Below are positions 905 to 24,467 of a stretch of 24,571 bases of DNA, in pieces. The notes below the pieces were generated by a model. That model searched no databases. It saw only the letters and a program-made list of their open reading frames with translations, and was not told the DNA's origin. The DNA comes from a candidate division KSB1 bacterium (GTDB lineage Bacteria > Zhuqueibacterota > JdFR-76 > DREG01), in NCBI GenBank assembly GCA_022566355.1, contig JADFJB010000066.1, positions 1-24,571 on the forward strand. Direction: 5' to 3'. A program made the position numbers and the translations under genes. Every line of letters starts with the position of its first letter. Position 1 is the stretch's first letter.

Positions 905-3370
905 TTATTTCAAGATTAACATTTTTTTCTCTTCCTGAAATCGGTTTCCATTTAGAGTAAAAAAGTTTACTCGATAAAAATAAGTTCCTGAAGGAACTCG
1001 CTGAAAGAGATCATTGTTGCCATCCCAACGCCATTCCTTATATCCGGCAGAAGAGAAATCGATACTTACCATTTTTATCCGTTGTCCCAGGGTATTGAAA
1101 ATTTCAATGGATACCTCTCCTGGTTTTGGCAAGAAAAAACTGATTGTCGTCGATGGGTTAAAGGGATTAGGATAATTTTGGAAAAGAGAAAACTGCTCCG
1201 GAGGCAATGAGCCATTGTCTTGAATACCATCGAAGAAATTGAGGATTTTGCGCATGATGGCGATTCGATCCTCTTCAGGATAAATCGTTTCAAAAGGGAT
1301 GCCAAAATGGACCAGTTTACCGGCATTGACACCCTGGGGAAAAAGGCCATCATAGTAGATACCTGCTACTCCACTGCTTGTGTTCACATTAGTGTATTTT
1401 AAACAATTTAAGCCGCCGTTAATCCCTTTGATCGCATCCGGCCAGTCAACATCAAAACTGCCATGTGTACCATCGTCGAAATTAAAAGGACTTACTCCTT
1501 CCAGGATTGTTCCACTTATTGGTTCTGCACTATAATAAGTACTACTTCTCCCATTAGGAGCATCGGCGATGTACTGTGCTTTCAGAAAATCATTATAAAA
1601 ACTGGCATCTGCAGACGAACCCCTTTGCAAATCCCAGCCAATCTCGGCGCCGGAAATAAATAATTTGCCACCATTCCGTAAAAATGTCTTTAACCGCTCC
1701 TGTTCGAGCTGGTTAAAAGTATCATCGGCGGTACTCTCATCTCCTAAGATCCAATCGACAATCTCAAAATTATCCAGCGCAACGCCATCTTTAAAAACCG
1801 CTTCATTGCTGGTTGAGGAAAAGGACATTCCAAAGCGATGAATCGCTTGTCCATGCTGACGAATAAAATCAAATGTATTGCTCGTTCCTCCGGTACGATC
1901 AAAGCCATTTACAACCAATACCTTATGCGAATCACTTGAAGGGATTGCGGCTAGCACTTCAGTGGGCTGTGACAGGCCTGTTGAATTGATTGCTCGCACT
2001 CGTACAAAACAAAGCTCTCCTGAATTTAAATTATTGATGACCGCGTCGGGTGTGGATAGAAAAACCGAATCAGGGAATGAAACACCATCTGTGCTTAAAT
2101 AAACAAAATACCCGGTTGCCCGATTGGCTGGTTCGAATTGGATTCGAAGTGAAGATTCACTTTCATGCAATATTCTTAAGGATAAGGGCACGCTTGGCGC
2201 TGGTAATTGGCCGCTGCCAAACTTGAAATCGATCGCGTCCCATAACTCCTGACGATTGCCGTCATAGCCCAACGCCCACATTCCGATACCCGAGAAATTA
2301 TTAGCGATGGCCAGATCATATTTCATACTGAGACTGGAGTCATTATCAAACCAAACCTGGTGAAAATCTGAGCCGTCATGCCAATTGTACCAGGGGGTTT
2401 GAGATTGAGTATCCCATATTAATCCATAAGTTTGAGCGCCAGACAAAGCAGAATCAAAAAATACTGATCCTATAAAGTCAGATGTTGACGAGCCGGGCTG
2501 GTCTGTTTGTGTCTTCCAATGATGGCCATAGTAAGGAAGGCCGAGAATCAACTTTTCCGGTTGTGTGGATGTAACCAGGCCATATTGACTTAAAACAGTA
2601 TTGGTGATATTAATCGAACCGCCGATTAACGGAGCGTTTGCGCCAGAATTGCTGCTCCAACTTCCTGCAAAGGCATAACCCATAATAAATATGTAATCAC
2701 AACTTTGGGCCAAGCCGGCAAAATCCCAGTGCCCACCCCAATTTACTGCAGGCCCGTCATAAGACACTTCAGTTCCTGGAATTTGTGAATGCAAATATTC
2801 AGTAAGTTCAGCCACAAAATTATTGATGTTTGCACCCCGGTCGGAATTATTTAAACTTTCGAAATCAACATTCAATCCGTCAGCGCTGCCTTCCAGCATC
2901 TTATTTTTGATGTTGACAAAGAAATTGTTTTTATAGGTGCTGTTTGTGATCAAGGTATGGATATTACCACCATTGAAAAGTGTGGCTGTCAGAATAACCT
3001 TCACGCCCCTGCTATGGGCGTTGTTGATTAAATTAACCCAGGGCCAACCATGGTCGTTGCCCAGGGAACCATCCGCATTTACCTCAACAGAAAAAGCGGC
3101 TATGTGTGAAAGCAGATCGTAACGCAGGTAATCGGCTGTGCTCCAGTACGGCAAAAAGCCAAATACTCGTGCATTCAACCCCTTCGTTTTGTGCAGGCTT
3201 TTATCAAGAGGGATAATCTTCTCAAATGGCTTCCCGATTAAATCCAATGAAGTGGGTGTGTCGCGATGCTTTTCCCATTCCATTTGATGAATGCTTTTCG
3301 GTTCTTGAGCAAAAGAAATTTCAGAAATGCAGAATATTAATAGTAAAATGAAAAGAAACGGTTGTTTCAT
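905..3370 (-). CDS. Secreted GH18-type glycosidase with FN3, GATase-like and T9SS-type C-terminal domains
   Basis: 821 residues from the ATG at 3370. A GTG at 3400 would add ten residues and overlap the upstream stop, but the ATG directly precedes a good signal peptide (KQPFLFILLLIF...SFAQ), so I prefer it. Residues about 65-382 form a GH18 barrel: the catalytic motif is DGLNVDFE (D164, N167, D169, E171), followed by the IMGYAF strand and a late MWALGYDG strand. Asn in place of the middle Asp is seen in YaaH/SleL-type peptidoglycan or spore-cortex glycosidases as I recall them, so a glucosaminidase acting on cell wall or chitin-like polymers is likely. Residues 390-477 look like FN3. Residues 481-715 resemble a class I glutamine-amidotransferase-like fold (LVVNGFD; GGKLFISGAEIGWD). 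Residues 727-821 are the sorting domain (FQNYPNPFNPSTT, ending KKMLILK). It follows the lipoprotein gene by 26 bases, probably in one operon. Confidence 0.88.
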   Translation of the reverse strand: MKQPFLFILLLIFCISEISFAQEPKSIHQMEWEKHRDTPTSLDLIGKPFEKIIPLDKSLHKTKGLNARVFGFLPYWSTADYLRYDLLSHIAAFSVEVNADGSLGNDHGWPWVNLINNAHSRGVKVILTATLFNGGNIHTLITNSTYKNNFFVNIKNKMLEGSADGLNVDFESLNNSDRGANINNFVAELTEYLHSQIPGTEVSYDGPAVNWGGHWDFAGLAQSCDYIFIMGYAFAGSWSSNSGANAPLIGGSINITNTVLSQYGLVTSTQPEKLILGLPYYGHHWKTQTDQPGSSTSDFIGSVFFDSALSGAQTYGLIWDTQSQTPWYNWHDGSDFHQVWFDNDSSLSMKYDLAIANNFSGIGMWALGYDGNRQELWDAIDFKFGSGQLPAPSVPLSLRILHESESSLRIQFEPANRATGYFVYLSTDGVSFPDSVFLSTPDAVINNLNSGELCFVRVRAINSTGLSQPTEVLAAIPSSDSHKVLVVNGFDRTGGTSNTFDFIRQHGQAIHRFGMSFSSTSNEAVFKDGVALDNFEIVDWILGDESTADDTFNQLEQERLKTFLRNGGKLFISGAEIGWDLQRGSSADASFYNDFLKAQYIADAPNGRSSTYYSAEPISGTILEGVSPFNFDDGTHGSFDVDWPDAIKGINGGLNCLKYTNVNTSSGVAGIYYDGLFPQGVNAGKLVHFGIPFETIYPEEDRIAIMRKILNFFDGIQDNGSLPPEQFSLFQNYPNPFNPSTTISFFLPKPGEVSIEIFNTLGQRIKMVSIDFSSAGYKEWRWDGNNDLFQRVPSGTYFYRVNFFTLNGNRFQEEKKMLILK

Positions 3371-3396
3371 ACTTGTATCTGGTTCTTTAAAGTCAA

Positions 3397-3612
3397 TCAC
3401 TTTATCTTCGATGGTTCACCTTTGTGTTGCTCACTATGCTCCTGGTGTGGAGACTTAAACCCTTCAGGTTCCTGAGGTGGTTTTGTCGAATCCTGTTGTG
3501 CTGTTGTAGTTAAAGTAGGAGGAGCTTGAGTTTCTTTGAATTTTCCTTCATCAGAATGACTACAGCTAACAAGTATAATAATTATTAAAAGAGATAAAAT
3601 GATTTGTTTCAT
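3397..3612 (-). CDS. Small lipoprotein with a disordered Pro/Gln/Glu/Lys-rich tail
   Basis: 71 residues from the ATG at 3612. An upstream in-frame start would add 19 residues in front of the signal peptide and is unlikely. The N-terminus MKQIILSLLIIIILVSC is a textbook lipoprotein signal, with lipobox LVSC and C17 as the predicted lipidated residue. The mature part is about 54 residues, with no predicted hydrophobic core, rich in Pro, Gln, Glu, Lys, Thr and His; it is probably an extended linker-like or binding tail on the cell envelope. Its TGA overlaps a GTG that could start the GH18 gene, and the preferred ATG of that gene is 26 bases further on, so the two are probably cotranslated. No family is recognised. 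The lipobox and clean spacing make it more than a chance ORF. Confidence 0.75.
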   Translation of the reverse strand: MKQIILSLLIIIILVSCSHSDEGKFKETQAPPTLTTTAQQDSTKPPQEPEGFKSPHQEHSEQHKGEPSKIK

Positions 3613-3927: not shown

Positions 3928-6594
3928 CTACTTTAACAGAGACATTTTATTCTTAAGCGTGATACCATTCACCCTGAGGATATAGAAATAAACACCGGAA
4001 GACATTTGCGACGCATCAAAAACAACGGAATAGCGTCCGGCTTCGTACTCTTTATCTGCCAGGGTAGCTACTTCTCGGCCCAACATCGAATAGATCTTCA
4101 ATAAGACATGTCCTCTGTCTTTAATGGAAAAATTTATGGTAGTTGTCGGGTTGAATGGATTTGGATAATTCTGCTCCAGAGAATATTCGGTTGGAATAAG
4201 TGAGCTCTCATTAACCGATGTAACAATCACAGATACCTCTTCTGAGAATACACTTTGATTGCCATTGAAGTCCACTGCAGCTACACGATAATAAAAAGTT
4301 TGTCCAATGGATACTGCTTCATCAGTTAAGGTAGTTTCTGTTGTGGAGCCAATATTCTCTGCGGTCTCGGGATTAAAACCAGCCTCTGTACCTTTCACAA
4401 CCAAAAAGTAGTTAAAATCTTCATCTTGTGATTCATCCCATGTTAGCTCAACGAACGAACCTGAAACTTCCTTTGCAAGGACGTTGGTAGGCGCTGATGG
4501 TGCTAAGTTGTCAAGCGAAAAACCACTCTTGGGGAATGATTTCCAGAGTGTCAGCACATTCTCGGTGTGTGCAGAGACGACGTAAGTGCTCCGCGTACTG
4601 TCTCCATCCGAAAGCGTTGGAACCACCGCTGCATATCTTGGCGATTGAATAGCATCCACTCGTGCGACCTGCACAGGTACCGGACCCGGACCCCGACCAT
4701 CGATTCTCCAAACCACATAGTGCGTTATCGTGAAGCCGGAAGTCTTACTCAGGCTGGAATCTTCTTCACGTGGCCTGGTTAAAATTTGGCCACGAATTTC
4801 GCCTCCGGGGTTGGTCGCCGTATGCACATTGACGTAGGTATTGCCATTAAGAAGTGCATTCACAAACCCTTGCCAGTCGCCTACAAGCGCACCAGTCAAG
4901 TCATCTGCTGTGATTCTTCCTCTCGCAATAACTCCATTCATCGGGCCACCGGCTTCAACGGGGCCAAACAAAAAGGCTACAACACCTCCACCTTCAGCAG
5001 GTCCACCCAGATGAATATGCGCCTGCGCAACGCTGTCGATGTTGTAAACCTCCAACATATACCACAGCGTATTATTCTCCCGATCCAGGGTAAACGTTCC
5101 TCTACCATGGCCGACCGTTTCGACCGGCGGAACGCTATTAGCTCCAGAAAGACCCGCATCCAAACGCAAACCGCCTACGTCGTCTGCAGCGCCCCACCAG
5201 GTAACCCAGGCTTGACGGCCATTATCGTTAGGCACATCCGCCACATTTTGGATAACCGGCTGATTGCCGACGACATGCTCGAGCACGACTATGGGCGGCG
5301 GCACGTTAGAAGGAATGCCTGCATATAGAATCTCATCTTTATCATCGCGGTTTACATTACCGACTGAAATAACATCAAAACGTCCGCTCACAGGCAAGAT
5401 GGAGTGATCGATGACGGATATTTCATAGTTTGTCGGATCAGTAATATCTCCACCTTGATACTCTACACGATAAATACTAGCGTTTGGGTTTGAACTTCTG
5501 GAACCGAAGATGAAGTCCATGTTTCCATCGCCGTCTACATCGCCCCAATCACCACCGTAAAGCCGTCCACCGTTGAGATCACCCGGTCTGCCAATTGAGC
5601 TAGCCGAAAGTGAGTCACCATCCTTTTCCAGCACCCAAACTTCGTTAAAGGCAGAGCTGGACCATCCACCAACGACAATTTCCATTTCGCCATTGTCATC
5701 AATATCAACAAGACTGGCGGATTTCCAGGAACCGCCTGGTACTAAACCAACCTGGGTCTTGGTAACACTAAAAGTATCTGTGGCACTGTGGTAGGTAACA
5801 GTGGAAACATCACCATTGCTACGAAACAAGTACATACTGCTATCATGTGCAACGATATCATAATATGTATTTGCACTGATCTCACTGTCTTTTCCGCTTG
5901 CCTCGAGTTCCCAAGTTTCCGAACCGTCGCCATCATCCGGGATATTATCAACAGAAATTACCAAAAAGGCATACCCACCTTGTCTAATAGATGAACAGAG
6001 CTCTTCTGTACCATCATTATCGATATCATGTAATAACCACCGGAATGGACGGATATTTACACCATCCCCATCTACAATGGTCCATTGTGCGTTAGGACGG
6101 TAATTTCCTGTGGCTGGATCCAAAACGCCCATTACATCACTGCCATCTCCGGCGGATTCAAAAACAAGTACTCGAGGCGGATTAGTTTGTGAGACACCTT
6201 GAAATCCGAAATTATTGACTGGTCCCCAGATAATTTCCATCTTCCCATCGTTATCCCAATCACCATAGGTCAACGCTGGCCAAGTATTTTGCAGGGTGAT
6301 ATCGGTTTCTGTCCACCAGACAATCTCCCAGCGACCTTCGTTCCATTCGTATTTGTAGATTCTTGGAATCATATCCCGGCCGACTTCTATGTCCCAGCCA
6401 TTGTTAACAGCATAAAATTCAGGTTTTCCGTCTCCGTCAAAGTCTACGCCAGACACAATACCGCCAAAACCGCCAGGATCAACATCAGATGCGGGTAGTT
6501 CTGCTCGACGGTCAAAACGCTGCCCATACAAGGAAAAGCTAAAAAGGAATAATGTGGAAATGACAAACAGGAAGCGAGTCGTAATTAATTTCAT
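3928..6594 (-). CDS. Secreted FG-GAP/VCBS-repeat protein with nested CHRD domain, FN3 and T9SS-type C-terminal domain
   Basis: 888 residues with signal peptide MKLITTRFLF...LYGQ. Residues 40-430 carry FG-GAP/VCBS-type blade motifs with Asp-rich calcium-binding loops: DFDGDGKPEF (51), DWDNDGKMEI (112), DIDNDGTEEL (190), DIDDNGEMEI (297), DVDGDGNMDF (352). Residues about 475-607 are a CHRD domain, with AHIHLG, then GRITADDLTG, then YVNVHTATNPGGEIRGQI. The segments before (about 446-474) and after it (about 620-697) look like two halves of one beta-sandwich domain. An FN3 domain spans 698-795. The sorting domain is 800-888 (LEQNYPNPFNPTTT, ending KNKMSLLK). It is presumably exported by type IX secretion and displayed on the surface. 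The start has a strong Shine-Dalgarno (GGAGGAG). It has its own promoter and terminator, so it is probably monocistronic. Confidence 0.9.
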   Translation of the reverse strand: MKLITTRFLFVISTLFLFSFSLYGQRFDRRAELPASDVDPGGFGGIVSGVDFDGDGKPEFYAVNNGWDIEVGRDMIPRIYKYEWNEGRWEIVWWTETDITLQNTWPALTYGDWDNDGKMEIIWGPVNNFGFQGVSQTNPPRVLVFESAGDGSDVMGVLDPATGNYRPNAQWTIVDGDGVNIRPFRWLLHDIDNDGTEELCSSIRQGGYAFLVISVDNIPDDGDGSETWELEASGKDSEISANTYYDIVAHDSSMYLFRSNGDVSTVTYHSATDTFSVTKTQVGLVPGGSWKSASLVDIDDNGEMEIVVGGWSSSAFNEVWVLEKDGDSLSASSIGRPGDLNGGRLYGGDWGDVDGDGNMDFIFGSRSSNPNASIYRVEYQGGDITDPTNYEISVIDHSILPVSGRFDVISVGNVNRDDKDEILYAGIPSNVPPPIVVLEHVVGNQPVIQNVADVPNDNGRQAWVTWWGAADDVGGLRLDAGLSGANSVPPVETVGHGRGTFTLDRENNTLWYMLEVYNIDSVAQAHIHLGGPAEGGGVVAFLFGPVEAGGPMNGVIARGRITADDLTGALVGDWQGFVNALLNGNTYVNVHTATNPGGEIRGQILTRPREEDSSLSKTSGFTITHYVVWRIDGRGPGPVPVQVARVDAIQSPRYAAVVPTLSDGDSTRSTYVVSAHTENVLTLWKSFPKSGFSLDNLAPSAPTNVLAKEVSGSFVELTWDESQDEDFNYFLVVKGTEAGFNPETAENIGSTTETTLTDEAVSIGQTFYYRVAAVDFNGNQSVFSEEVSVIVTSVNESSLIPTEYSLEQNYPNPFNPTTTINFSIKDRGHVLLKIYSMLGREVATLADKEYEAGRYSVVFDASQMSSGVYFYILRVNGITLKNKMSLLK

Positions 6595-11898: not shown

Positions 11899-14667
11899 CT
11901 AGAAGCTATAAGTTAATCCCAGGCGAATTTCTCTGGGTTTGCTTAACCAGTCCTCCCGCTTATAGTAATTGTCCAGGAATTCCAGCGGGAAGAAGTTCTG
12001 ACCTCCTGTCATAACGTCATTTTCAATTGTTCTTCTCAAATCATTAAATAAATTTGGATTTGTAGACTCGGCTAATGAATTAAGTGAATTGCCAGTGCTG
12101 CCATAAACGAAGCGTTCATTCTTTAGGTCCAGGGCGTTTTCTATTTGCAGAAAAAGGGACATTTTAGCACCAGCGATCTTAACAAACTTTTCCAATCTTA
12201 AATCTATATTTATATTCGTCGGCCTGCGGTCACTGTTTTGTTCAAACTGGACAGTCTGAACGGAAGATGGAAGCGAAGGTGTGTAGGGTGTTCCAAGCCA
12301 GACACTTCCGATAGCGCTGATGATCCAACTATCTTTCTTTCTTAAAGACATAGTGCCATTCAAAGTATGGGTCCGATCATGTGATAATAGAATAAATTCC
12401 TGCTCCGTATCACGTCCGGAGCGCGAATCAACTGCAAGTTTAAGTGGATCATCAAATGCTCCTTCAGCAACCTGAAAGGTATAATCCAACGAGGCAGAAA
12501 ACAATCCACCCGGTGAGCGCCGTTTTAGCAATGATGCTGTAATTCCCTTAACATAGGCATAGCTAATATTTGTAACCACATTATACTCTTTTGTGGCAGC
12601 AACCTCACCCGCAAATACCCTTCTCGATTGAATCAAGTTGTTAACATCTTTGTAATAAATGGTTAGATCTATTTTCATATCATCGGTAAATTGCTGCTGA
12701 AGCCCCATTTCATATTGAATACTTCTTTCTGGTTCCAGATTTGGATCCCCGAAAGTTGGCACCTGGATAAATTCAAAATCTTCAAACCTGGGGTTTGTAT
12801 AAATGCTGGCAAAATCCGGGTTTTGATAAAAATGCCCGTAAGAAAATCGAATGATGCCACGATCTGTGATTGGAAAACTTAGACTGATTCTTGGACTAAA
12901 GCGATGCTTTGGAGTGGATTGAACCAGGTTCTTCTCAACGCCGGTATCCACGGCTCCGACCAAGTCCGGATTGTAGGGTGCCTTTGTATCCAAAAATTCA
13001 TAGCGCGCACCAATATTTAAGATGAACGACCTGGCAAGTTCCATCTTGTCTAGAATATAAACTGCTGCCTGCAACGGTTTTCTCGTATAGGCTTGGTATT
13101 GAGTGAAATCTGGGTTAACTTTCGGATCGGGTATAATGGGTTGCGCCTGACCCACATCATACAAAAGCGTATATACTTCTGTTTCCATACGGTGATTGCG
13201 AAGTTCGCCGCCAAATTTTAATTCATGAACCGGATGAACCTGGCTGACGACGTCCAACTTAGCGTTCCAGGAACGGGTTCTTCGCCAGGAACGACTAAGG
13301 TTAGTACCGCCTGCAAGGTAGGCAGTCGGTGAGATGAGATTATTACTAACCAGGCTGCCAAAACTCGCAACATAACCGGGGTCGAAGGGATCTTCAAATG
13401 CCCAGGTACGCGTATAACGCAAGCCAAGGCCTACCTTCAAAGTGTAAAACATTTTACTGCTTAACGTATGGGTCATACCGACAGAATGGTTCGTGCCATT
13501 ATCAAATCTTGTGGCCCGCCCATCAGGATTAAATCGATATGTACGTGAAAAGCTTAAATTTTCACCATCATCCAAAATCAAGTCATAACTTAACTTTACA
13601 TTAGGATCAGGTTTCCAGGTCAATTTACCGGAAAAGTTCAAGTTTTCACCGGTATTCATCGCTACGATTTCCCGATCGCCATCAGCCTTGCCGTTTCCAA
13701 AGGGATCGATTATGAAAGATTGACCTGCAATTAAAAGAATCTCATCAGGGTTGTAAATCCTGATCCCATAAAGATATCCCTTATTAACTACCCGAACTCC
13801 GGAAATAAAGAAGTTAACATTTTTGCCAAGAAAAGGAACAGGCCCTCCCAATGTGCCTTCATAACGGCGATTATTAAAAATATCTATTTCGTCTATGTTA
13901 AAGAAGATATCGTCTCGGCCGCTAAAATTATCTCCAGTCCAGAATCTAAAGGTACCGCCTAGTTTGGGACCCCCTTCCTTGGTTACATAATTAATTACAC
14001 CACTGAGCGCATTGCCATACTCGGCGCTGAAAGTACCGATTGAAATTGAAACCTCTTGTACAGCATTTGTCGCCAACCCAACATTCTGGCTGTTAAAAAA
14101 AGGATTGTTTAATGATACCCCATTGATTTGATAGGCAATTTCGTTTGAACGGCCGCCCCTGATATGGATATTGCCGGAATTGTCCTGGATAATACCTGCT
14201 TGAAGTCTGATCACATCGCGAATTTGATCTACGGGTAGCGCATCTATAACATCTGAAGTAATAGCTACTTGTGTGTTGGTAAGATCAGCTCTCACCAGTG
14301 GATAGCGTTCACCAACAACTTCAACAGTTCCGAGCTCAAGCGTTGCCAATGAAAGCTTTTTATCCAGCCGTGTAGTGAAGTCAACATTAACCCGTACATT
14401 AGTAACTACAAGTGTACGATAGCCAACAAAGGAAAATCGCACCCGGTAAATACCTGGTGGAATATTTAATATTGTGAAATTACCGTTAATATCCGCTGCA
14501 GCACCCAAGGTAGTGCCTTCGATAATAATATTGGTTCCAGGCAGAGATTCACCAGTTAGAGCATCAGTTACCTTACCTGCAAGCTTCCCGGTTTCTCCTG
14601 CAAAGGCAGTTAGCGATAAGCATAAGAATAGGAAATGTAATGTCCAAAATGATGTAAATTTTAGCAT
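11899..14667 (-). CDS. TonB-dependent receptor with N-terminal carboxypeptidase-regulatory-like domain
   Basis: 922 residues. Signal peptide (residues 1-23, ending TAFA) and SD GGAG six bases before the ATG. Residues 28-112 are a CarboxypepD-regulatory-like beta-sandwich (LAGKVTDALTGESLPGTNI, GNFTILNIPPGIYRVRFSFVGY). Residues about 113-232 are the plug: VEVVGERYPLVRAD, LPVDQIRDVIRLQAG, IHIRGGRSNEIAYQINGVSL, and EYGNALSGVINYVTKEGG. The rest is a beta-barrel ending in Phe (LGLTYSF). Such receptors import or bind a large substrate across the outer membrane, driven by TonB-ExbBD from elsewhere in the genome. The regulatory-like domain is typical of SusC-like and FCB-group receptors, but no SusD-like lipoprotein is encoded here; the 1199-residue exoprotein takes that place in the operon. 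Substrate unknown. Confidence 0.92.
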   Translation of the reverse strand: MLKFTSFWTLHFLFLCLSLTAFAGETGKLAGKVTDALTGESLPGTNIIIEGTTLGAAADINGNFTILNIPPGIYRVRFSFVGYRTLVVTNVRVNVDFTTRLDKKLSLATLELGTVEVVGERYPLVRADLTNTQVAITSDVIDALPVDQIRDVIRLQAGIIQDNSGNIHIRGGRSNEIAYQINGVSLNNPFFNSQNVGLATNAVQEVSISIGTFSAEYGNALSGVINYVTKEGGPKLGGTFRFWTGDNFSGRDDIFFNIDEIDIFNNRRYEGTLGGPVPFLGKNVNFFISGVRVVNKGYLYGIRIYNPDEILLIAGQSFIIDPFGNGKADGDREIVAMNTGENLNFSGKLTWKPDPNVKLSYDLILDDGENLSFSRTYRFNPDGRATRFDNGTNHSVGMTHTLSSKMFYTLKVGLGLRYTRTWAFEDPFDPGYVASFGSLVSNNLISPTAYLAGGTNLSRSWRRTRSWNAKLDVVSQVHPVHELKFGGELRNHRMETEVYTLLYDVGQAQPIIPDPKVNPDFTQYQAYTRKPLQAAVYILDKMELARSFILNIGARYEFLDTKAPYNPDLVGAVDTGVEKNLVQSTPKHRFSPRISLSFPITDRGIIRFSYGHFYQNPDFASIYTNPRFEDFEFIQVPTFGDPNLEPERSIQYEMGLQQQFTDDMKIDLTIYYKDVNNLIQSRRVFAGEVAATKEYNVVTNISYAYVKGITASLLKRRSPGGLFSASLDYTFQVAEGAFDDPLKLAVDSRSGRDTEQEFILLSHDRTHTLNGTMSLRKKDSWIISAIGSVWLGTPYTPSLPSSVQTVQFEQNSDRRPTNINIDLRLEKFVKIAGAKMSLFLQIENALDLKNERFVYGSTGNSLNSLAESTNPNLFNDLRRTIENDVMTGGQNFFPLEFLDNYYKREDWLSKPREIRLGLTYSF

Positions 14668-14720
14668 GTTGATCTCCGCATTTCAAGACTCGGGGACTGA
14701 AATATTACAAATGGTTAAAG

Positions 14721-14749
14721 ATTATAAAGGAATTAATATTTCATTTCAA
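14721..14749 (-). promoter_or_regulatory. Near-consensus sigma70 promoter of the receptor operon
   Basis: On the minus strand, TTGAAA (14749-14744) and a perfect TATAAT (14726-14721) are separated by exactly 17 bases. Transcription would start near 14714, giving a leader of about 47 bases with GGAG before the ATG at 14667. This is the best promoter in the window. Confidence 0.75.
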
Positions 14750-14806
14750 GAAAATATGTTGTATTACAATCCAAAATTAAATTGCCCTTTTTATAAAAAA
14801 TTAATG

Positions 14807-14836
14807 TTGACAATAAGTTACAAATTTGTTAATTAT
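14807..14836 (+). promoter_or_regulatory. Possible promoter of the right-hand exoprotein operon
   Basis: A perfect -35 TTGACA (14807-14812) is followed after 18 bases by AATTAT (14831-14836), which matches the -10 consensus at four of six positions. The leader would be about 114 bases. It lies in the very AT-rich region between divergent genes, where chance matches are common. Confidence 0.38.
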
Positions 14837-14947
14837 AAAAACATTCTAAATACTATAACTTCTAAATTAAGTCTTAATAAGTCCGAAAATCATTCTTACC
14901 TTATCATGTTCAAGTTAAAACCTTTATATTCATTAAAATATTATCCT

Positions 14948-14952
14948 GGAGG
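14948..14952 (+). promoter_or_regulatory. Shine-Dalgarno site that decides the start at 14957
   Basis: GGAGG four bases before ATG 14957, immediately followed by a signal peptide. The longer in-frame ORF upstream overlaps the 5' end of the divergent receptor gene and is not coding. Confidence 0.75.
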
Positions 14953-14956
14953 TGAC

Positions 14957-16786
14957 ATGTTTAAAAAAATCTTTGTTTGCGTTATTGTAGCCTTTTCGAT
15001 TTCATCTATTTTCTCTGAAGCCTACAGTCAAGCTGAAGGAGAGAACAGCTTTCGGTTGGCAGCTCTAAATAACCGTTTCTTAACTTCGCCGGATACCATT
15101 AGCTGTACCGCTGGTAGAGGAATCTATGTGGCTGCAAATCCCGATTTGGATGGTGATGGTAAACCAGAAATTCTTGTAACGGAGTATCGCGATGGCGGCA
15201 GGATATTGGTTTTTGAAGTAGTTGGGGACAATACCCTGGAATATGTGTGGGGGTCTAAAAAGCTCAATCCCGGTGGGTTTGGCGGTGGGTCAACTCCCCG
15301 TTCAGTAACAGTCGGAGATTTCGACAATAACGGAAAAATGGAGATTATTTTCCAGGTTGGCTATAGCGCGACGGATAGTTTGTCACGCGCCCAACGAGGT
15401 CTTTATTTTTATGAGTATACCGGGAACGACAATGACTACGGCGCGGAACCAGCGTTCAAGCTCAAATTTGATGAGATAGACCCACTGTTTGATGCACTGT
15501 CAGTAGGACGTGCCGAAAACCCACTTACAGTACAGGATATAGATGGCGACGGCAAAAATGAGTTGCTTTATACACCTCGTGTATTTGACAGCACACTTGA
15601 GACTGGAAATCTATATATATTAGAAGTAGAAAGTGGCACCTTTACCGGTGGGGATGCAAGCATCCGATTAGAATACAAATATACAGGGATGGCCAAGGCT
15701 ATTGATTTTGGTGATGATGGATATACACCAGTCAACACTGCCGTTGGCGATATCGATAATGATGGATTTGCTGAAATTGTTGTGTTGGGTTGGACGAACA
15801 CAAACTCTGGCGCCGGAGTTGGTTTTCTGGAAGTATCGGGTGTAGATACATATACTGACGGCAGTGTTGTTCCGATCAGCGAAACCAGTATTTTTAATGT
15901 AAAAGCCGACATAGAAATTGTCAATGTCGATGGAAATGTGGCCGTCATATTTGCTGCGGGTTGGTCCAATCAAGGAATTCAAAGAATTTATGTTATGGAC
16001 AATATCGTCAATGATGCATTTGTTAGTGAATCGGATCTACATATCATTTCGGAGGGTGTCGAGCAGTTTGGCATCATGGCGATTGGCGACCAGGATCATG
16101 GCAGTGGCTCTGATGGTTTTGATATCTACGTAAGCACAGTCCCGGAAATTATTAATATTGAATACAATGGCTCCGGCGCTCTTTCGGATCCGGCCAGTTA
16201 TACCAACCATGGACGTCTGGGTCAATTCAATCTCGATGAGGCCTATGACCTGAGCGATGGTCTTTTTAATTCCATTTATACATATCCAGGCATGGATTTA
16301 GACAATGATGGCAACCGGGATCTTGTAGTGGGGTACAAAGGCGCTTGCGGTCCAGAAGGTGATATTCTCGAGGGTGAATTGTTTACGGTAAATACCTACG
16401 GAATTTTTGTCTTCGAATGGGGCGACTCGACGCAATCGATTCCGGTAACTTTGAGCACAGGTGTAGAAGACGAAGCTCCTCCGGCTTGGATAGTCATTAC
16501 TCCCAAAGATTATATCCTTGAACAAAATTATCCGAATCCATTCAATCCTACAACCAACATTACTTTTACTTTGCCTTTAGAGAATAGAATCAGTTTGAAG
16601 ATTTACAATTCACTGGGACAAGAGGTTAAAACCCTGATAGATAATCAAGAATATTCACGAGGTCCACATAGTGTGATATGGGATGCAACGGACAAAAACG
16701 GAAATCCTGTTACCAGTGGAGTTTATGTCTATAAATTGGTTTTTGGGAATTTCTCTAAAACGAAGACCATGTCCTTGGTAAGGTAG
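14957..16786 (+). CDS. Secreted FG-GAP/VCBS-repeat protein with T9SS-type C-terminal domain
   Basis: 609 residues from ATG 14957, chosen for its SD and the signal peptide MFKKIFVCVIVAFSIS...AYSQ. Five Asp-rich loops mark propeller blades: DLDGDGKPEI (63), DFDNNGKMEI (121), DIDGDGKNEL (194), DIDNDGFAEI (265), DLDNDGNRDL (447); the regular D-x-D-x-[DN]-G spacing suggests bound calcium. The C-terminal sorting domain (515-609) has LEQNYPNPFNPTTN, SLKIYNSLGQEV, SGVYVYKL and ends KTMSLVR. It resembles the 3928-6594 protein in the blade loops and in a shared segment (INIEYNGSGALSDPASY here; YRVEYQGGDITDPTNY there), but has no CHRD or FN3. First gene of a likely three-gene operon; the next gene starts 84 bases downstream. 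A surface-displayed propeller with binding or structural role is likely; no catalytic motif was seen. Confidence 0.87.
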   Translation: MFKKIFVCVIVAFSISSIFSEAYSQAEGENSFRLAALNNRFLTSPDTISCTAGRGIYVAANPDLDGDGKPEILVTEYRDGGRILVFEVVGDNTLEYVWGSKKLNPGGFGGGSTPRSVTVGDFDNNGKMEIIFQVGYSATDSLSRAQRGLYFYEYTGNDNDYGAEPAFKLKFDEIDPLFDALSVGRAENPLTVQDIDGDGKNELLYTPRVFDSTLETGNLYILEVESGTFTGGDASIRLEYKYTGMAKAIDFGDDGYTPVNTAVGDIDNDGFAEIVVLGWTNTNSGAGVGFLEVSGVDTYTDGSVVPISETSIFNVKADIEIVNVDGNVAVIFAAGWSNQGIQRIYVMDNIVNDAFVSESDLHIISEGVEQFGIMAIGDQDHGSGSDGFDIYVSTVPEIINIEYNGSGALSDPASYTNHGRLGQFNLDEAYDLSDGLFNSIYTYPGMDLDNDGNRDLVVGYKGACGPEGDILEGELFTVNTYGIFVFEWGDSTQSIPVTLSTGVEDEAPPAWIVITPKDYILEQNYPNPFNPTTNITFTLPLENRISLKIYNSLGQEVKTLIDNQEYSRGPHSVIWDATDKNGNPVTSGVYVYKLVFGNFSKTKTMSLVR

Positions 16787-16870: not shown

Positions 16871-18355
16871 ATGAAGAAATTGATACTTATAGTACTCTTT
16901 TTTTTGATGTTAACCCCCGCTTTTATAATGGCTCAAACAAACCAGTGGAGTACGCGATACGTCACTCTGGACGAACCAGGCAATGGTACGGGAGATCGAA
17001 CCTCCAGTATAGCCGTTGTTGGGCCAAATGCATTTGTGGCGTTGGTGTCTTCAATCACAGATAACAACGATATTTTTGGAACTTTCGACGACAACTACCT
17101 GGTGGGTTATTTCGAGGCGGATTCAGCTGTGGGTCGGGTTGCACTGCAAGAATATGGCCCAACCGGTCAATTTGAGGTTTGGAGTTCTGGACTTGACCAG
17201 GTACTCCTGAACGGAGCCTGGCAAATTGCCGGGGCGAAAAACAGCTATGTATATGTGGCCAACAACGACGCTAATCACAATATTTTGGTATTCGAGCTCA
17301 CCGGATTCGGAATTTTGCCAACTGATTTCCGTATGGAAACGGGTTCTGAAAATATATTTGCTATTGATGTGGACACTGCAGGATATGTCTATGTGGTTGA
17401 CCACGTTGGGACCGATGGGAAAAATAGCGAACTAAAAATCTTTGCACCCATTAATTCTCCTGGAACTACATGGGGCGATGCAGGTGGCCACACCGATACT
17501 CCATCTACTATTATTGACCTTCCTCCCGGCACTTATCAAGGTGTCGCAGCAAGTGGCGACGGTGCCCAGGTATTTGTTAGTATGATTGAAACCAAAAGTA
17601 TTATGAAATTTGTCGGTGATCCCGTCAATGGCTACACTCAGGATAATTCCTTTTCTGCTGTTATTTCTCCAACGGATACCTATTTAGACGTGGATGGCAT
17701 ACTGGTGGGATCCACAACTTTCCTCGGTATGGACTATCTCGATAATCCTGGTCTCCTATTTGCCGCTGTCGATTCATTTCTCTGCATAAGCGGTTCGACA
17801 GAAACCTGCGGGGGTTATGCAACGGGTCGTGTTTTTGCCATTGATCCAGCTACAGGAACCAGTCTTGATACAATTGATGTGGCTCAATGGAATTTTAATA
17901 ATACTAATTCTTATAGTACTGGCAGCAGCAACGGCAGAGTGGGTGGTTTTACCTCAGTTTATGATGTTGATGTGAGTAACGAACCGGCTGTTTATTCGCA
18001 ATCGTTTTACGGTTGGGCCATAGAAAAATGGGTTTTTGATGGTAATTTAGGCACAGTTGTCAGTGTGGAGCAGGTTGCCGAAACCATACCTACCGGTTTT
18101 TCTTTACGACAGAATTATCCCAATCCATTCAATCCAATAACCACGATAGAATTTGAGATTCAAAGTTCAGAACATGTCATTCTCGCTATTTTTGACCTTA
18201 AAGGTCAAAAAATTACCACTTTAGTAGACGAACAACTGCCGCCGGGAATATACCGATCCAACTTCGATGCCGGCAAATTCGCTTCAGGAATTTATTTTTA
18301 CAGCCTACGTGCAGGCCAAAGTAAAATTAAAAAAAAGATGATCCTGGTCAAATAA
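16871..18355 (+). CDS. Secreted beta-propeller-like protein with T9SS-type C-terminal domain
   Basis: 494 residues, signal peptide MKKLILIVLFFLMLTPAF...MAQ, and SD AAAAGGAGAT ten bases before the ATG. Residues 25-395 have repeated strand patterns such as SYVYVANNDANHNILVFELTG, ENIFAIDVDTAGYVYVVD and GVAASGDGAQVFVSM, as in six- or seven-bladed propellers, but lack the FG-GAP Asp loops of the preceding gene. Two Cys residues close together (C305, C313) could form a disulfide. The sorting domain (407-494) has LRQNYPNPFNPITT, LAIFDLKGQKI, SGIYFYSL and ends KKKMILVK. Second gene of the likely operon. No specific family or activity is recognised. Confidence 0.85.
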   Translation: MKKLILIVLFFLMLTPAFIMAQTNQWSTRYVTLDEPGNGTGDRTSSIAVVGPNAFVALVSSITDNNDIFGTFDDNYLVGYFEADSAVGRVALQEYGPTGQFEVWSSGLDQVLLNGAWQIAGAKNSYVYVANNDANHNILVFELTGFGILPTDFRMETGSENIFAIDVDTAGYVYVVDHVGTDGKNSELKIFAPINSPGTTWGDAGGHTDTPSTIIDLPPGTYQGVAASGDGAQVFVSMIETKSIMKFVGDPVNGYTQDNSFSAVISPTDTYLDVDGILVGSTTFLGMDYLDNPGLLFAAVDSFLCISGSTETCGGYATGRVFAIDPATGTSLDTIDVAQWNFNNTNSYSTGSSNGRVGGFTSVYDVDVSNEPAVYSQSFYGWAIEKWVFDGNLGTVVSVEQVAETIPTGFSLRQNYPNPFNPITTIEFEIQSSEHVILAIFDLKGQKITTLVDEQLPPGIYRSNFDAGKFASGIYFYSLRAGQSKIKKKMILVK

Positions 18356-18470: not shown

Positions 18471-20174
18471 ATGAAAAAACGATTACAATTCATCATAGCA
18501 ATCATTTCTTGTTGTGTTTTTTATAGTAAAACCAACCAGGCTGTCGCCAATGTTTTCGCTTCCCAACTGAAAATCATAAACCCGGATGATTCACCATTTG
18601 ATGGTAATTTTTCTGATGGGACAGGTGCAAAGATATCTTTCTTACTAAACGCTGCAGCCTCTTCAGTAATTGTCGTGGTTAAGGATGCTGCCAACGGCAA
18701 TATTATCGCCCAAATTGATGGTGGGGCGATGGGAAGCGGTTTGAATTCTGTAGATTGGGATGGCACTGGCGCCGAGACTGGCAAACAATATATTTACGAA
18801 GTGACGGCTGTACAACCGAATGCATCTAGCACGGATTGGAGGGTATTTTTTGACTCCGGTGATATTGAGATTTTTACACGAGGGTGTGCAGTTGTTAAAG
18901 ACATGAGTAGTCCCCTATTCGGGTTGATTTATACACCCAACACTGGCGGCGATCTACCACAAGTGGGAAAAGGCATTACTATTTACAATCCAGATGGTTC
19001 ATTCCATGACCCGTTTCTAGTAGCTGCAGATATAAACGATGGCGGTACAATCGACTGGGGTGGAGGTTCTGATGTCATGTACGGAGCTGTTTTTGATGCT
19101 TTAGATCGATTCTACGTTTCGGCTATTCAATTTGGTGAAATAAGACGTTTGAACCAGGACTATTCAATTACTTCTGTGATTACAGGTCTAACCAATCCAA
19201 AAGGTCTTTATCTACAGGGAGAAGGAGAAGCCCTCACAATTTATGTAGCTGCAGACAATAAAATCTGGCGTGGCAATATTGGCACGGCTGATTCAATGAA
19301 GGCAGGGGATATGGAGTTATTGGCTCAATTTAGCGGCTTTTTTCCCCACCAAATAAATTTGGATGACGAAGGATTTCTATATGTCAGTCTAAGGGCGAGT
19401 AATCAACTGGGTTCAGATGGTCGCGGTATCCGTAGGTACGACCTTACGGGAACCCTGCCAGTAACCGATGATGATGCGTTTTGGTTTTTAGGCGAAGAAA
19501 AAACATTCATTGCCAATGACCTGGTTTTCGATCGCGGCGCCGATCGAAATTCTGCTGCCGATGACATTTTATATTTTGTTACCAGGGCAGGTGAGGATAA
19601 AGATGAAGATGGAATTTGGAGAGTCGATGATATTCACTCTGTTTTCCCTGATGTGATTCGAATCATCACGGAAAATGACTTTTATGGTGATGATAGCAAT
19701 GTTCAATCCCGGGCATCTTTTGACTTCGATGCTGCAGGAAATATTGTTTTTATGGAAAACGCCAATGAACACCTTTTTCTTATTTCTCCTCCTGGCGAAG
19801 GCGAAACCAACAGCTTTACGACAACAAGCCCGGATACATTTACGGTAAGTGTTACTGTTGGTGTTGAAGAGCCTGGTCTTGCAAAAACGCCTAAGTCGTA
19901 TGAGTTATACCAGAATTATCCAAACCCGTTTAATCCTAGTACAACCATTAAGTTTTCTCTTAGCCAATCTGAAACGATCTCGCTACGAATTTATGATCTG
20001 AATGGCCGGTTGGTTAGAACATTGATTGAATCCGATAAAAGATCGAGAGGATTGAATAGAGTTGAATGGGATGGAAAAGATAATTCAGGTAGTTTGATCC
20101 CATCTGGCAGATATGTCTATACTTTGGAGTCCGGCAAATTTAAAAGTTCAAAGATAATGACGCTGGCGAAATAA
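18471..20174 (+). CDS. Secreted NHL/SMP-30-like propeller protein with FlgD-like N-domain and T9SS-type C-terminal domain
   Basis: 567 residues, signal peptide through about residue 29 (VANVFA), SD GGAG eight bases upstream. Residues 45-115 look like a FlgD-type Ig domain: SFLLNAAASSVIVVVKDAANG, then LNSVDWDGTGAETGKQYIYEV. Residues 135-440 read as a beta-propeller of NHL/gluconolactonase type: PKGLYLQGEGEALTIYVA, HQINLDDEGFLYVSL, GIRRYDLTG, ASFDFDAAGNIVFME. The sorting domain (474-567) has LYQNYPNPFNPSTT, LRIYDLNGRLV, NRVEWDGKDNSG, SGRYVYTL and ends KIMTLAK. The N- and C-terminal domains share the FlgD-like VxWDG pattern, so the propeller is bracketed by two related folds. Last gene before the terminator at 20250-20306. 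No active-site assignment is justified. Confidence 0.85.
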   Translation: MKKRLQFIIAIISCCVFYSKTNQAVANVFASQLKIINPDDSPFDGNFSDGTGAKISFLLNAAASSVIVVVKDAANGNIIAQIDGGAMGSGLNSVDWDGTGAETGKQYIYEVTAVQPNASSTDWRVFFDSGDIEIFTRGCAVVKDMSSPLFGLIYTPNTGGDLPQVGKGITIYNPDGSFHDPFLVAADINDGGTIDWGGGSDVMYGAVFDALDRFYVSAIQFGEIRRLNQDYSITSVITGLTNPKGLYLQGEGEALTIYVAADNKIWRGNIGTADSMKAGDMELLAQFSGFFPHQINLDDEGFLYVSLRASNQLGSDGRGIRRYDLTGTLPVTDDDAFWFLGEEKTFIANDLVFDRGADRNSAADDILYFVTRAGEDKDEDGIWRVDDIHSVFPDVIRIITENDFYGDDSNVQSRASFDFDAAGNIVFMENANEHLFLISPPGEGETNSFTTTSPDTFTVSVTVGVEEPGLAKTPKSYELYQNYPNPFNPSTTIKFSLSQSETISLRIYDLNGRLVRTLIESDKRSRGLNRVEWDGKDNSGSLIPSGRYVYTLESGKFKSSKIMTLAK

Positions 20175-20621: not shown

Positions 20622-22571
20622 ATGAATGACCAAACAAGAAAAACAATGTGTATACGGCTTGGGATGGGAATACTCAACATTTGTATTCTGATTGCTGGAT
20701 TATCTTTCGCTTATACTCCCGAGAAGGATAAAACTCAAAAGGCAATTAACTCATTATCCACATTCAATAAAGAATATGCCCTCTTAAACATTAATAACCT
20801 AACCTCTTGGTTACGGGCAGACGGACAAATGAACCATGGTCCGAGTAATTCAGTGGGAACTCATTTTCCCCGAGGTACTGCAGTGGTTATCTACCAGGAT
20901 GGATTTGTTTGGGGTGGCAAGGCTTATATTGATTCTGACATGCAACAACCGGCTCCGTTCGACCAACTTATCCGAGTGGGGGGAGGATCTTACCAAACCG
21001 GAACCCGTGCTGGTCGGATTATTGGAAGCGGGGCAACCGCATTTGCAGCTAATCCAGATTCAGAAGAGTCCCGGATTTATCGAATTCGCCGTGATTATTT
21101 AACTATGTCTAAAGAAGAAGTGATCAAAGATGCTGCCGAAACCAATGAAATTAATCCCAAAGAAGTAACTTCTAGCCAACTACAAGAAATCCAAGCTCAA
21201 TATGCAAGAGATTGGCGTGAATGGCCGGTACAATTTGGCGCACCGTTTATAGACCGAAATGGCAATAACATTTATGATCCACCACCAGAATTTGACGATA
21301 ACTTCACAGCAGCTGATTTAATCACGGACAATTATGATGAGCCGGGAATTTCTGCTGGTACACCTAATTTCCCGGCAGACCAGGTAATCTACACAATATT
21401 TAATGATCTGGACCAAGATAAAACACGTAAATTCTCAGATTCTGAACCGTTAGGATTGGAATTGCAATTGACGCAATGGGCATTTAAAAGCAAAGATAAT
21501 TGGAACGGTATTTATTATCGCAAGCTGAAGATCATCAACAAGGGTGGCGTTGAGATTTCTGAAAATGACACTAAAGGCTCTTTTTGGCTTGATAGTATGT
21601 ATATTTGTTTGTGGACGGACGGAGATCTGGGTAACCATTCAGACGATCTCGTTGGTAGTGATCCTGCATTAAATCTTGGTTACTACTACAACGAAATAAG
21701 TCTGGATAACGAATTTAGAAAATTTAACCTGCCGCCACCTTCAATAGGTTATCTATATTTACAAGGACCAAGAATACCAGCACAAGGAGAATCTGCTTTC
21801 TTTAATGGAAAAACAATTGCGGATTGGAAAAACTTACCTATGTCCTCATTTACATTTTTTGGTACGGGAAATCCATTTTCCGATCCCGGAGGAAGCTACC
21901 AAACCAATACGATTCAATGGTATAAAATTTTAAGAGGTTTTGCGCCTTTATTTGGACCTGATGTTAGATATTCATTTCCTCCTGGAGTTGAACCTACTTT
22001 TTTCCCGTATGCAGGAAATCCTGTAACAGCTACTGGACATATTGACGGACTGGGAAAGGAATATTCATTGCGAGGGGGAGATCGACGAACTATGATTTCT
22101 TCCGGTCCTTTTACCCTGGCCCCTGGCGACACACAGGAAGTTGTTCTTGCATTTGCGGCAGGTCTGGGAGCGGATAGACTGTCAAGCATCACCGTTATGA
22201 AGCATGTTGCCCGGCAATTGCAGCTTTGGTATCCCTATCACCCAAAATTTGAGACTGTAGATATAGATGAGCCAGTTGTTTTGGATGCTCCAATTTATTA
22301 TGAACTCTCACAAAATTACCCGAATCCATTTTTCGGGCAAACTCAAATACAATATACTATTCCATTACCATCTCAAATACAACTAACTATTTATGATATA
22401 TTAGGGAGGGAAATAAGAGTTCTGGAAAGTGGACAAAAACAGGTTGGAACTTATCAAACAAATTGGGATGGCCGAGATCAGCATGGCAAGCAAACTCCCA
22501 GTGGGATTTACATTTATCGATTACAAATTGACCATATTGAGATAGCCCGTAAACTATTCCGATTAAGATAA
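20622..22571 (+). CDS. Secreted exoprotein related to the 1199-residue protein, with T9SS-type C-terminal domain
   Basis: 649 residues; a signal peptide follows a basic N-region (residues 1-30, ending GLSFA). The SD is only moderate (GGGGAT upstream of the ATG). Landmarks shared in the same order with the 8268-11867 protein: INNLTSWLRADG (57) with later FPRG and VWGG, a calcium-loop-like DRNGNNIYD (211), a DD/DLD stretch then LGLELQL (277), and SSGPFTLAPGDTQ (493). This suggests a common exoprotein family with a beta-rich core; Trp and Tyr are frequent. The sorting domain (558-649) has SQNYPNPFFGQTQ, where FFGQ replaces FNPx, then LTIYDILGREI, SGIYIYRL, ending ARKLFRLR. It is separated from the operon to its left by a terminator. 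Function unknown; surface display is inferred from the C-terminal domain. Confidence 0.83.
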   Translation: MNDQTRKTMCIRLGMGILNICILIAGLSFAYTPEKDKTQKAINSLSTFNKEYALLNINNLTSWLRADGQMNHGPSNSVGTHFPRGTAVVIYQDGFVWGGKAYIDSDMQQPAPFDQLIRVGGGSYQTGTRAGRIIGSGATAFAANPDSEESRIYRIRRDYLTMSKEEVIKDAAETNEINPKEVTSSQLQEIQAQYARDWREWPVQFGAPFIDRNGNNIYDPPPEFDDNFTAADLITDNYDEPGISAGTPNFPADQVIYTIFNDLDQDKTRKFSDSEPLGLELQLTQWAFKSKDNWNGIYYRKLKIINKGGVEISENDTKGSFWLDSMYICLWTDGDLGNHSDDLVGSDPALNLGYYYNEISLDNEFRKFNLPPPSIGYLYLQGPRIPAQGESAFFNGKTIADWKNLPMSSFTFFGTGNPFSDPGGSYQTNTIQWYKILRGFAPLFGPDVRYSFPPGVEPTFFPYAGNPVTATGHIDGLGKEYSLRGGDRRTMISSGPFTLAPGDTQEVVLAFAAGLGADRLSSITVMKHVARQLQLWYPYHPKFETVDIDEPVVLDAPIYYELSQNYPNPFFGQTQIQYTIPLPSQIQLTIYDILGREIRVLESGQKQVGTYQTNWDGRDQHGKQTPSGIYIYRLQIDHIEIARKLFRLR

Positions 22572-22677: not shown

Positions 22678-22752
22678 ACCGATTCCATCGCTCTAAAAAG
22701 TATTTGTTTTTATGTATCAATTTTTTTTAGAAAAGCGATGGCATCGGTTTTT
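22678..22752 (+). terminator. Long-loop stem between convergent genes, probable terminator
   Basis: ACCGAT, one mismatch, CCATCGCT, CTAAAAA (22678-22699) pairs with TTTTTAG, two unpaired bases, AGCGATGG, one mismatch, ATCGGT (22724-22748). The stem closes a loop of about 24 bases and runs into five T residues at 22748-22752 on the plus strand. It starts about 106 bases after the 22571 stop. On the minus strand no T-tract follows, so it mainly suits the plus-strand gene. The large loop also fits a fold-back repeat. Confidence 0.55.
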
Positions 22753-22771
22753 AAAGCAGACTCAATTATAA

Positions 22772-24094
22772 TTAGAGAGTTTCCAAACCAAAAGAAAAGG
22801 TAGTCCCCTGGTTTATTTCGCTTTTCACTTCTATTTTACAGTCATGCAGCTCGATTATCTTTTTGGCGATCGCAAGGCCTAATCCCGCGCCACCGTAACT
22901 TTTTGCCCGGCTTTTATCAATTCGATAAAAACGCTCAAATATGAGCGGTAATTCCTCTGCCGGAATTCCAGGACCCGTGTCGGTTATATCAACCAAAACC
23001 TGGTTGCCCTTCTTTTTCAAATATATTGTTACGGTTCCTTGCGGTGGCGTAAATCGAATGGCATTGTCGATCAGGTTTGAAAGTGCTCGTTCTATTAAAG
23101 CAATATCAGCCTGAACCATTGGCAAGGACTTCGCTAGATTAAGATCGAGTGTAATGTCTAATTTCTTTGCCAAGGGATTGAACTTGATCACAACATCCTG
23201 TGTGAGATCTGCCATGGAAAAGGATTCAGTTTGTGGTTGTATTTGTTGTGCATCCAGTTTCGAAAGCTCAAACAAATCATCAACAAGATTACCAAGCATT
23301 TTGGTATTATCGAAAATGATTTGCAGGTATTTTCGTGACTCTTCGGCAGAAAGACTATTTTCTTTCATCATGATCGTTTCAAGATAACCCTGAATGGATG
23401 CCAGGGGGCTGCGCAAATCGTGGGAAACGTTGGCAACCAATTCACGGCGCAAATTGTCGGTTTTTTTTAATTCTTCCATATTTGCAGTGATCGTATCTGC
23501 CATATGATCAAATGCTTGTGAAAGCTGACCCACCTCATCACTGGATTTTGATGAAATCCGAACATCATATTTCCCTCGTTCAAATTCTTTGACTTTGGAA
23601 GTCATTTGGTGAAAACGTTTTGTTAAAAGTGCAAACAATATCAGTCCAATAAGTCCTGTGGTGATAAATGCTGCTAATATCCCCATCGAAGTATTTCGGA
23701 TAATAAAACTTTCCCGAAGCATGTCTGCAGCGGAATCGTATTGTTCTCCCATCAGAATCACATAGATGTAACCGGGGGTACTATTGCCAATTTGCACGGG
23801 TGTCGCCGCAAAGGTTTTCTGCTTGCCTAAATGGCGGGGATCATCTCCAAGAATGGGCATATTTTGATCGCCTGATTCTTTACCGGTCTCGGACAGTAAA
23901 GTGATAGAATCATTTTCCCGTGATGCCGATTGCTGAGATCTGCTGCGAATCTGTGATAACTGTCGATTCAGTTCATCAACTAATTTAGATTGCTGTTTTA
24001 ACTGCTTATAGCGATTGAAAAACAATAATCCTGCCACCGGAAAAACACTGACCAATAGTACATTAGTACTGTATCTCCAGGTAGGTAGCTGCAA
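22772..24094 (-). CDS. Sensor histidine kinase with LytTR-regulator-like N-terminus
   Basis: 440 residues counted from a TTG at 24094; the true start is uncertain. One membrane segment lies at about 11-27 (NVLLVSVFPVAGLLFF) and a second at about 137-158. Residues 80-135 form the sensory stretch (HLGKQKTFAATPVQIGNSTPGYIYVIL, EQYDSAADML). HAMP spans about 159-211 (KEFERGKYDVRI, SSDEVGQLSQAFDHMAD). The kinase core is complete: H-box VANVSHDLRSPL with H225, N-box NLIDNAIRF, G1 DTGPGIP, F-box FERFYR, G2 GGAGLGLAI. It should autophosphorylate on H225 and pass phosphate to a response regulator, none of which is encoded in the window. Residues 11-72 (PVAGLLFFNRYKQL, then SITLLSETGKE) look like the last membrane helix, coiled coil and LytTR-domain entry of a LytTR-type regulator. 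The gene overlaps the upstream ORF by 32 bases in another frame. Confidence 0.88.
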   Translation of the reverse strand: MQLPTWRYSTNVLLVSVFPVAGLLFFNRYKQLKQQSKLVDELNRQLSQIRSRSQQSASRENDSITLLSETGKESGDQNMPILGDDPRHLGKQKTFAATPVQIGNSTPGYIYVILMGEQYDSAADMLRESFIIRNTSMGILAAFITTGLIGLILFALLTKRFHQMTSKVKEFERGKYDVRISSKSSDEVGQLSQAFDHMADTITANMEELKKTDNLRRELVANVSHDLRSPLASIQGYLETIMMKENSLSAEESRKYLQIIFDNTKMLGNLVDDLFELSKLDAQQIQPQTESFSMADLTQDVVIKFNPLAKKLDITLDLNLAKSLPMVQADIALIERALSNLIDNAIRFTPPQGTVTIYLKKKGNQVLVDITDTGPGIPAEELPLIFERFYRIDKSRAKSYGGAGLGLAIAKKIIELHDCKIEVKSEINQGTTFSFGLETL

Positions 24095-24467
24095 AGTTTG
24101 ATAAACTGATCGTTAAACCCTCCATGTAAATCACAATCGACGTGACACCAAGTCCTATTGAAAATAAAATAACGATTGTAATGCCAATTTCATCAACCAG
24201 ACGCCAGCTTTCCTGGCTAAACTTTTTCGGAAATAAAATCCGGCCGCCAATCGAAATGGAGGCCGCAATGGCAATCGAAGTCACTGCATTCAGTGTGCTA
24301 AAAAAGATCAGGGTGCTTGTTGAAGCACGATCCAGGCCAAAGGGTTTGAAGAATACAAAAAACAAAAAGAGGAAAAGACCAATTCCGGCAGATGATTTTA
24401 AAGTCTCTTTTAGGTCAAACTCATATGGATAGGATTGCGTAAGTATTTTTTTAATATTTTCTAGCAA
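24063..24467 (-). CDS. Membrane module of a LytTR-type regulator, cut off before its fourth helix
   Basis: 134 residues from a TTG at 24467; no ATG is available between the preceding in-frame stop and this point. Three membrane helices: about 26-42 (GIGLFLFLFFVFFKPFGL), 51-75, and 94-114. The pattern PYPYEFDLKETLK, then FLFFVFFKPFGL, then ILFPKKFSQESWRLVDEIG matches, from memory, the N-terminal membrane region of LytTR regulators of the FCB group, which has four helices followed by a LytTR DNA-binding domain. Here the frame stops at TAA 24063-24065 after LEIQY, and the fourth helix continues in the overlapping kinase frame. A tandem AGGTAGGTAG (plus strand, 24079-24088) lies in the overlap; removing four bases would join both frames into one ORF of 563 residues. 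It may be a frameshifted gene, a translationally coupled pair, or an assembly error. Confidence 0.65.
   Translation of the reverse strand: MLENIKKILTQSYPYEFDLKETLKSSAGIGLFLFLFFVFFKPFGLDRASTSTLIFFSTLNAVTSIAIAASISIGGRILFPKKFSQESWRLVDEIGITIVILFSIGLGVTSIVIYMEGLTISLSNFAATYLEIQY

Follow-up and report, generated by a model that had tools for sequence, protein, structure and literature searches.

A LytTR membrane-regulator module joined to a truncated histidine kinase and split by a frame step in a candidate division KSB1 bacterium, probably a chimeric and degenerating locus

Membrane-bound LytTR regulators carry four N-terminal helices and a coiled coil ahead of the DNA-binding domain (PF04397), and several are encoded in the phylum of the bacterium studied here (L004/L055, L005, and L058). 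The six phylum homologues used for comparison are regulators of 288–317 codons, all in one frame, one of which (L006) has a shortened DNA-binding domain. The phylum also contains operons of an OmpR/PhoB-type response regulator and a HAMP-HisKA-HATPase_c sensor kinase (L010/L048, L012/L050, and L015/L053). Seven kinase relatives are 53–63% identical over a sensor-HAMP-HisKA query, a set that was later widened to 13. Each of these kinases begins with a first helix and a first sensor half of its own and is directly preceded by a response-regulator ORF (for L070, seen in the overlapping loci L015/L053). Their frames are open over 489–578 codons apart from one of 432 codons that is cut by a contig end. 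The family response regulators are 58–94% identical to one another. The extracytoplasmic sensor domain in the kinase N-terminal half of this regulator-kinase family (L009-L015, L069-L081) shows the pattern MNPxxExYxxDxxG...PILGDDPRH...GYLYVILGGE and has no family in Pfam or NCBIfam and no match among solved structures. Several of the kinase relatives are followed by a secreted or lipoprotein-like ORF. Chimeric pseudogenes, a third point of comparison, arise by deletion between two genes.

The window, that is, the whole stretch of DNA analysed (24,571 nucleotides), is the complete contig C66 of a 4.62-Mb assembly in 213 contigs that is 98.5% complete, and the region of interest therefore ends 104 bases from the contig end. 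Two ORFs of 134 and 440 aa overlapping at 24063–24094 had been described there as a LytTR module fused to a kinase and interrupted by a frame step. Both ORFs are present, and our comparisons confirmed this observation. The features are as follows.

24063–24467, minus strand: 134-aa ORF with a TTG start, containing helices 1–3 of a LytTR-type membrane regulator and ending out of frame (ORF list; LytTR profile match; six one-frame homologues).
22772–24094, minus strand: 440-aa ORF with a TTG start and no close Shine-Dalgarno sequence, containing the end of the LytTR segment and then a truncated histidine kinase (ORF list; Pfam; motif check).
23873–24467, minus strand: LytTR-derived segment (joined residues 1–197) with four helices, coiled coil, and first LytTR strand, the DNA-binding domain being absent (profile of six homologues, 84 bits).
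22772–23872, minus strand: kinase-derived segment with the second sensor half, last helix, HAMP, HisKA, and HATPase_c, lacking the first helix and first sensor half (profile of 13 kinases, 605 bits).
23486–23629, minus strand: HAMP domain (Pfam PF00672, E = 2.9e-09).
23249–23449, minus strand: HisKA domain (Pfam PF00512, E = 1.7e-18).
22784–23107, minus strand: HATPase_c domain with intact N, G1, F, and G2 motifs (Pfam PF02518, E = 9.4e-31; motif search).
24079–24088, plus strand: AGGTAGGTAG, 2.5 tetranucleotide units at the frame step, a chance-level repeat (genome match search; frame-restoring deletions; Markov-1 control).

Elsewhere on the contig, six large ORFs (20622–22571, 18471–20174, 16871–18355, 14474–16786, 3928–6594, and 905–3400) share similar NYPNPF...-type C-terminal segments that by eye resemble the sorting tails found on cargo of type IX secretion. 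Between the convergent kinase ORF and ORF 20622–22571, at 22690–22760, there is an inverted repeat whose loop is A/T-rich (CCGATGCCATCGC...GCGATGGAATCGG); likewise recognized by eye, it is possibly a two-way terminator.

The front of the locus derives from a LytTR-type membrane regulator. A profile built from the six phylum homologues matches joined residues 4–197 across the frame step and up to SETGKE-S, and the closest homologue is 33% identical through both frames. The 134-codon ORF, which matches no Pfam family of its own, together with the first ~74 codons of the kinase ORF thus constitutes the front half of such a regulator, as had been proposed, and is a true fragment of the LytTR module rather than an unrelated standalone protein. 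The four-helix module, the coiled coil, and the first strand (LLSETGKE) are the same as in the membrane-bound relatives, whereas the module is split by the frame step between helices 3 and 4 and a kinase replaces the DNA-binding domain. The latter had been reported missing, and indeed PF04397 matches neither of the two ORFs nor the locus.

The back of the locus is a PhoR/WalK-like sensor kinase in which the expected HAMP, HisKA, and HATPase_c domains were all found within the 440-aa ORF, together with the H, N, G1, F, and G2 motifs. The profile of the 13 phylum kinases matches joined residues 198–562 but starts only at model position 148; the first 147 positions have no counterpart, and the complete two-helix extracytoplasmic sensor of the 13 relatives is not present. 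Compared with the regulator-kinase operons of the phylum, the protein is the same from mid-sensor to the C-terminus with intact catalytic motifs, whereas it lacks the first helix and the first sensor half, and no response regulator precedes it. The preliminary description would have been contradicted by an unrelated 134-residue ORF together with kinase homologues that have ordinary N-termini. This was borne out in part: the homologues do have such N-termini, but the ORF proved to be related. The kinase core contains no stops and differs at two of 96 columns invariant among the relatives, both conservatively, compared with 0–5 changes in the relatives themselves. This lack of decay indicates that the event was recent, that the core is still used, or that the join is an artefact, and it does not decide among the three.

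The two halves meet at window position ~23872/23873. The match to the LytTR profile stops at joined residue 197 and that to the kinase profile starts at residue 198, leaving no linker, and the joint is in frame, as expected by chance in one of three cases. When 388 genomes were searched with a query spanning the joint, no match besides the window itself covered both sides, and nearly all matches started at the joint. Two of them (one in G033 and the second match in G324) start 17–27 residues further upstream; the former belongs to a kinase (L010) that has an N-terminus of its own, and the latter is distant (32% identity, in a 631-codon frame).

The severed kinase N-terminus and the cognate regulator were not found elsewhere in this genome. 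Of 82 phylum genomes, 13 gave a match to a profile of the kinase N-terminal half; this genome gave none, and a genome-contig scan yielded only a distant kinase. No cognate response regulator adjoins the kinase, and the best candidate in the genome is 31–35% identical to the family regulators. Two other LytTR domains were identified in the genome: that of a cytoplasmic response regulator (C13) and a decayed DNA-binding domain with an in-frame TGA at C28:35955–36161 (L046, G000:C28:30000–39230). The latter remnant (L039/L046) is 37–43% identical to the LytTR domains of relatives, and the genome may be losing LytTR genes. It is directly followed by a dispersed repeat of ~105–130 bases, other copies of which (80–90% identical) lie within the same 9 kb. 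A reciprocal exchange with this remnant was considered and rejected: a kinase N-terminus is absent genome-wide, and the reciprocal product is therefore not seen.

With four bases deleted at the frame step, the two ORFs become one of 563 aa plus stop, as calculated previously. Deleting one base likewise restores a single ORF, of 564 aa, and the four-base step is therefore not unique. The tract AGGTAGGTAG is the sole exact match found in the genome, and eight distinct period-4 sites of 2.5 units occur in the window compared with 5.6 expected (range 0–12 in 100 Markov-1 sequences), so that it does not exceed chance length as the tracts of simple-sequence-repeat phase-variable genes do. Two other ways of linking the frames were rejected. 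Programmed frameshifting from the 134-codon ORF into the kinase frame needs a +1 shift, and no classical slippery or +1 site was recognized by eye in the overlap. As for translational coupling, the ATG overlapping the stop of the 134-codon ORF (TAATG) opens another frame that closes after 21 codons and therefore does not lead into the kinase.

By hydropathy, the 134-aa ORF contains three helices and the kinase ORF two, giving five when they are joined. The split-form sequence analysed lacked one residue (N), with no effect on the helices or charges. Helix 4 is preceded by one K/R and followed by four, and helix 5 is preceded by two and followed by four; both helices therefore prefer a cytoplasmic C-terminal side, which is impossible for successive helices. 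As predicted earlier, the joined form with an inside N-terminus would place the kinase outside the cell. The counterpart of this prediction held only in part: the split form does have two helices, but not a clean topology, and the kinase would be inside only if helix 4 inserts against the positive-inside rule. No such conflict exists in the kinase of a relative (L072), where the first helix has two K/R before and one after and the second has two before and five after. The predicted topology is frustrated in the joined and split forms alike.

We consider it probable that the locus is chimeric and degenerating. A chromosomal rearrangement, most simply a deletion, would have fused the first two thirds of a LytTR regulator gene to a sensor kinase gene at a point in its middle. 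What lay beyond on either side would have been lost: the DNA-binding domain of the LytTR regulator, the response regulator, the kinase first helix, and the first sensor half. The fused frame would later have been broken by a small frameshift, perhaps through tandem duplication of 4 bases. The two origins, the position of the joint, the lost parts, and the frame step are shown by the comparisons; the sequence of events, deletion as the mechanism, and the loss of function are inferred. This reading is favoured by the joint without linker, the intact relatives, the absence of the severed parts here, the lack of a spanning homologue, and the topology clash; the undecayed kinase core and the in-frame joint count against it. 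Because there is no complete sensor and no cognate regulator, and the topology fails whether joined or split, the product is most likely non-functional. Also against a simple deletion, the three relatives with both genes (G033, G060, and G077) have them on different contigs, and an ancestral neighbourhood on which it could act was not seen there. The locus resembles chimeric pseudogenes in its sharp joint of unrelated halves, the loss of the parts beyond, and a second frame lesion, but differs in that its kinase portion is fully open and conserved, with decay not yet visible. The event was probably recent and the chimera probably non-functional.

The main rival, which we regard as possible but unlikely, is an assembly artefact in which the last ~700 bases were wrongly joined, while the organism itself has intact kinase and LytTR genes. 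It owes this rank to the position of the joint and the frame step, ~700 and ~490 bases from the end of a contig in a fragmented assembly, and the fully conserved appearance of the kinase core fits it as well. Against it, the kinase N-terminus and cognate regulator occur nowhere else in the nearly complete assembly, and the joint region has no repeat able to mislead an assembler, its other matches in the genome being short and at chance level (~15–18 bases where exact or nearly so). In tetranucleotide distance the last 690 bases are unremarkable, which also speaks against foreign DNA at the contig end. The remaining large ORFs on the contig are undamaged, indicating a low general error rate.

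That the truncated protein is a working orphan kinase, starting anew in the LytTR remnant or further in and acting via another response regulator, appears doubtful. The intact core and an ORF open across 440 codons would suit such a kinase, but its sensor domain is halved, its cognate regulator is lost, its TTG start is weak, its first helix is charged the wrong way round, and the 388 genomes contain no conserved example. We think it very improbable that a kinase was newly born here, with the LytTR remnant giving the start and first helix and the frame step freeing an orphan kinase from a misoriented four-helix module. The related proposal that the frame step makes the kinase work was not borne out, as its close relatives all have their own N-terminus and an upstream response regulator.

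Tetranucleotide repeats are known to act as switches by slippage, as in icaC of S. aureus, the listed variants of which carry 4–6 units (PMC4117637). The suggestion that slippage at AGGTAGGTAG toggles fused and split forms has no support beyond the frame arithmetic and is extremely improbable, since the tract is shorter than in those variants and at chance density, the relatives of both halves are intact and none carries the fusion, and the fused form would put the kinase outside the cell.

The locus therefore looks like an ordinary broken chimeric gene or a contig-end assembly fault, not a new kind of switch. Its main value is as a caution: without comparison to relatives, a chimeric ORF can be mistaken for a switch or a new type of sensor architecture. 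Should the kinase prove functional, the locus would instead capture a rare case in which a frameshift has given a signalling protein a new front end.
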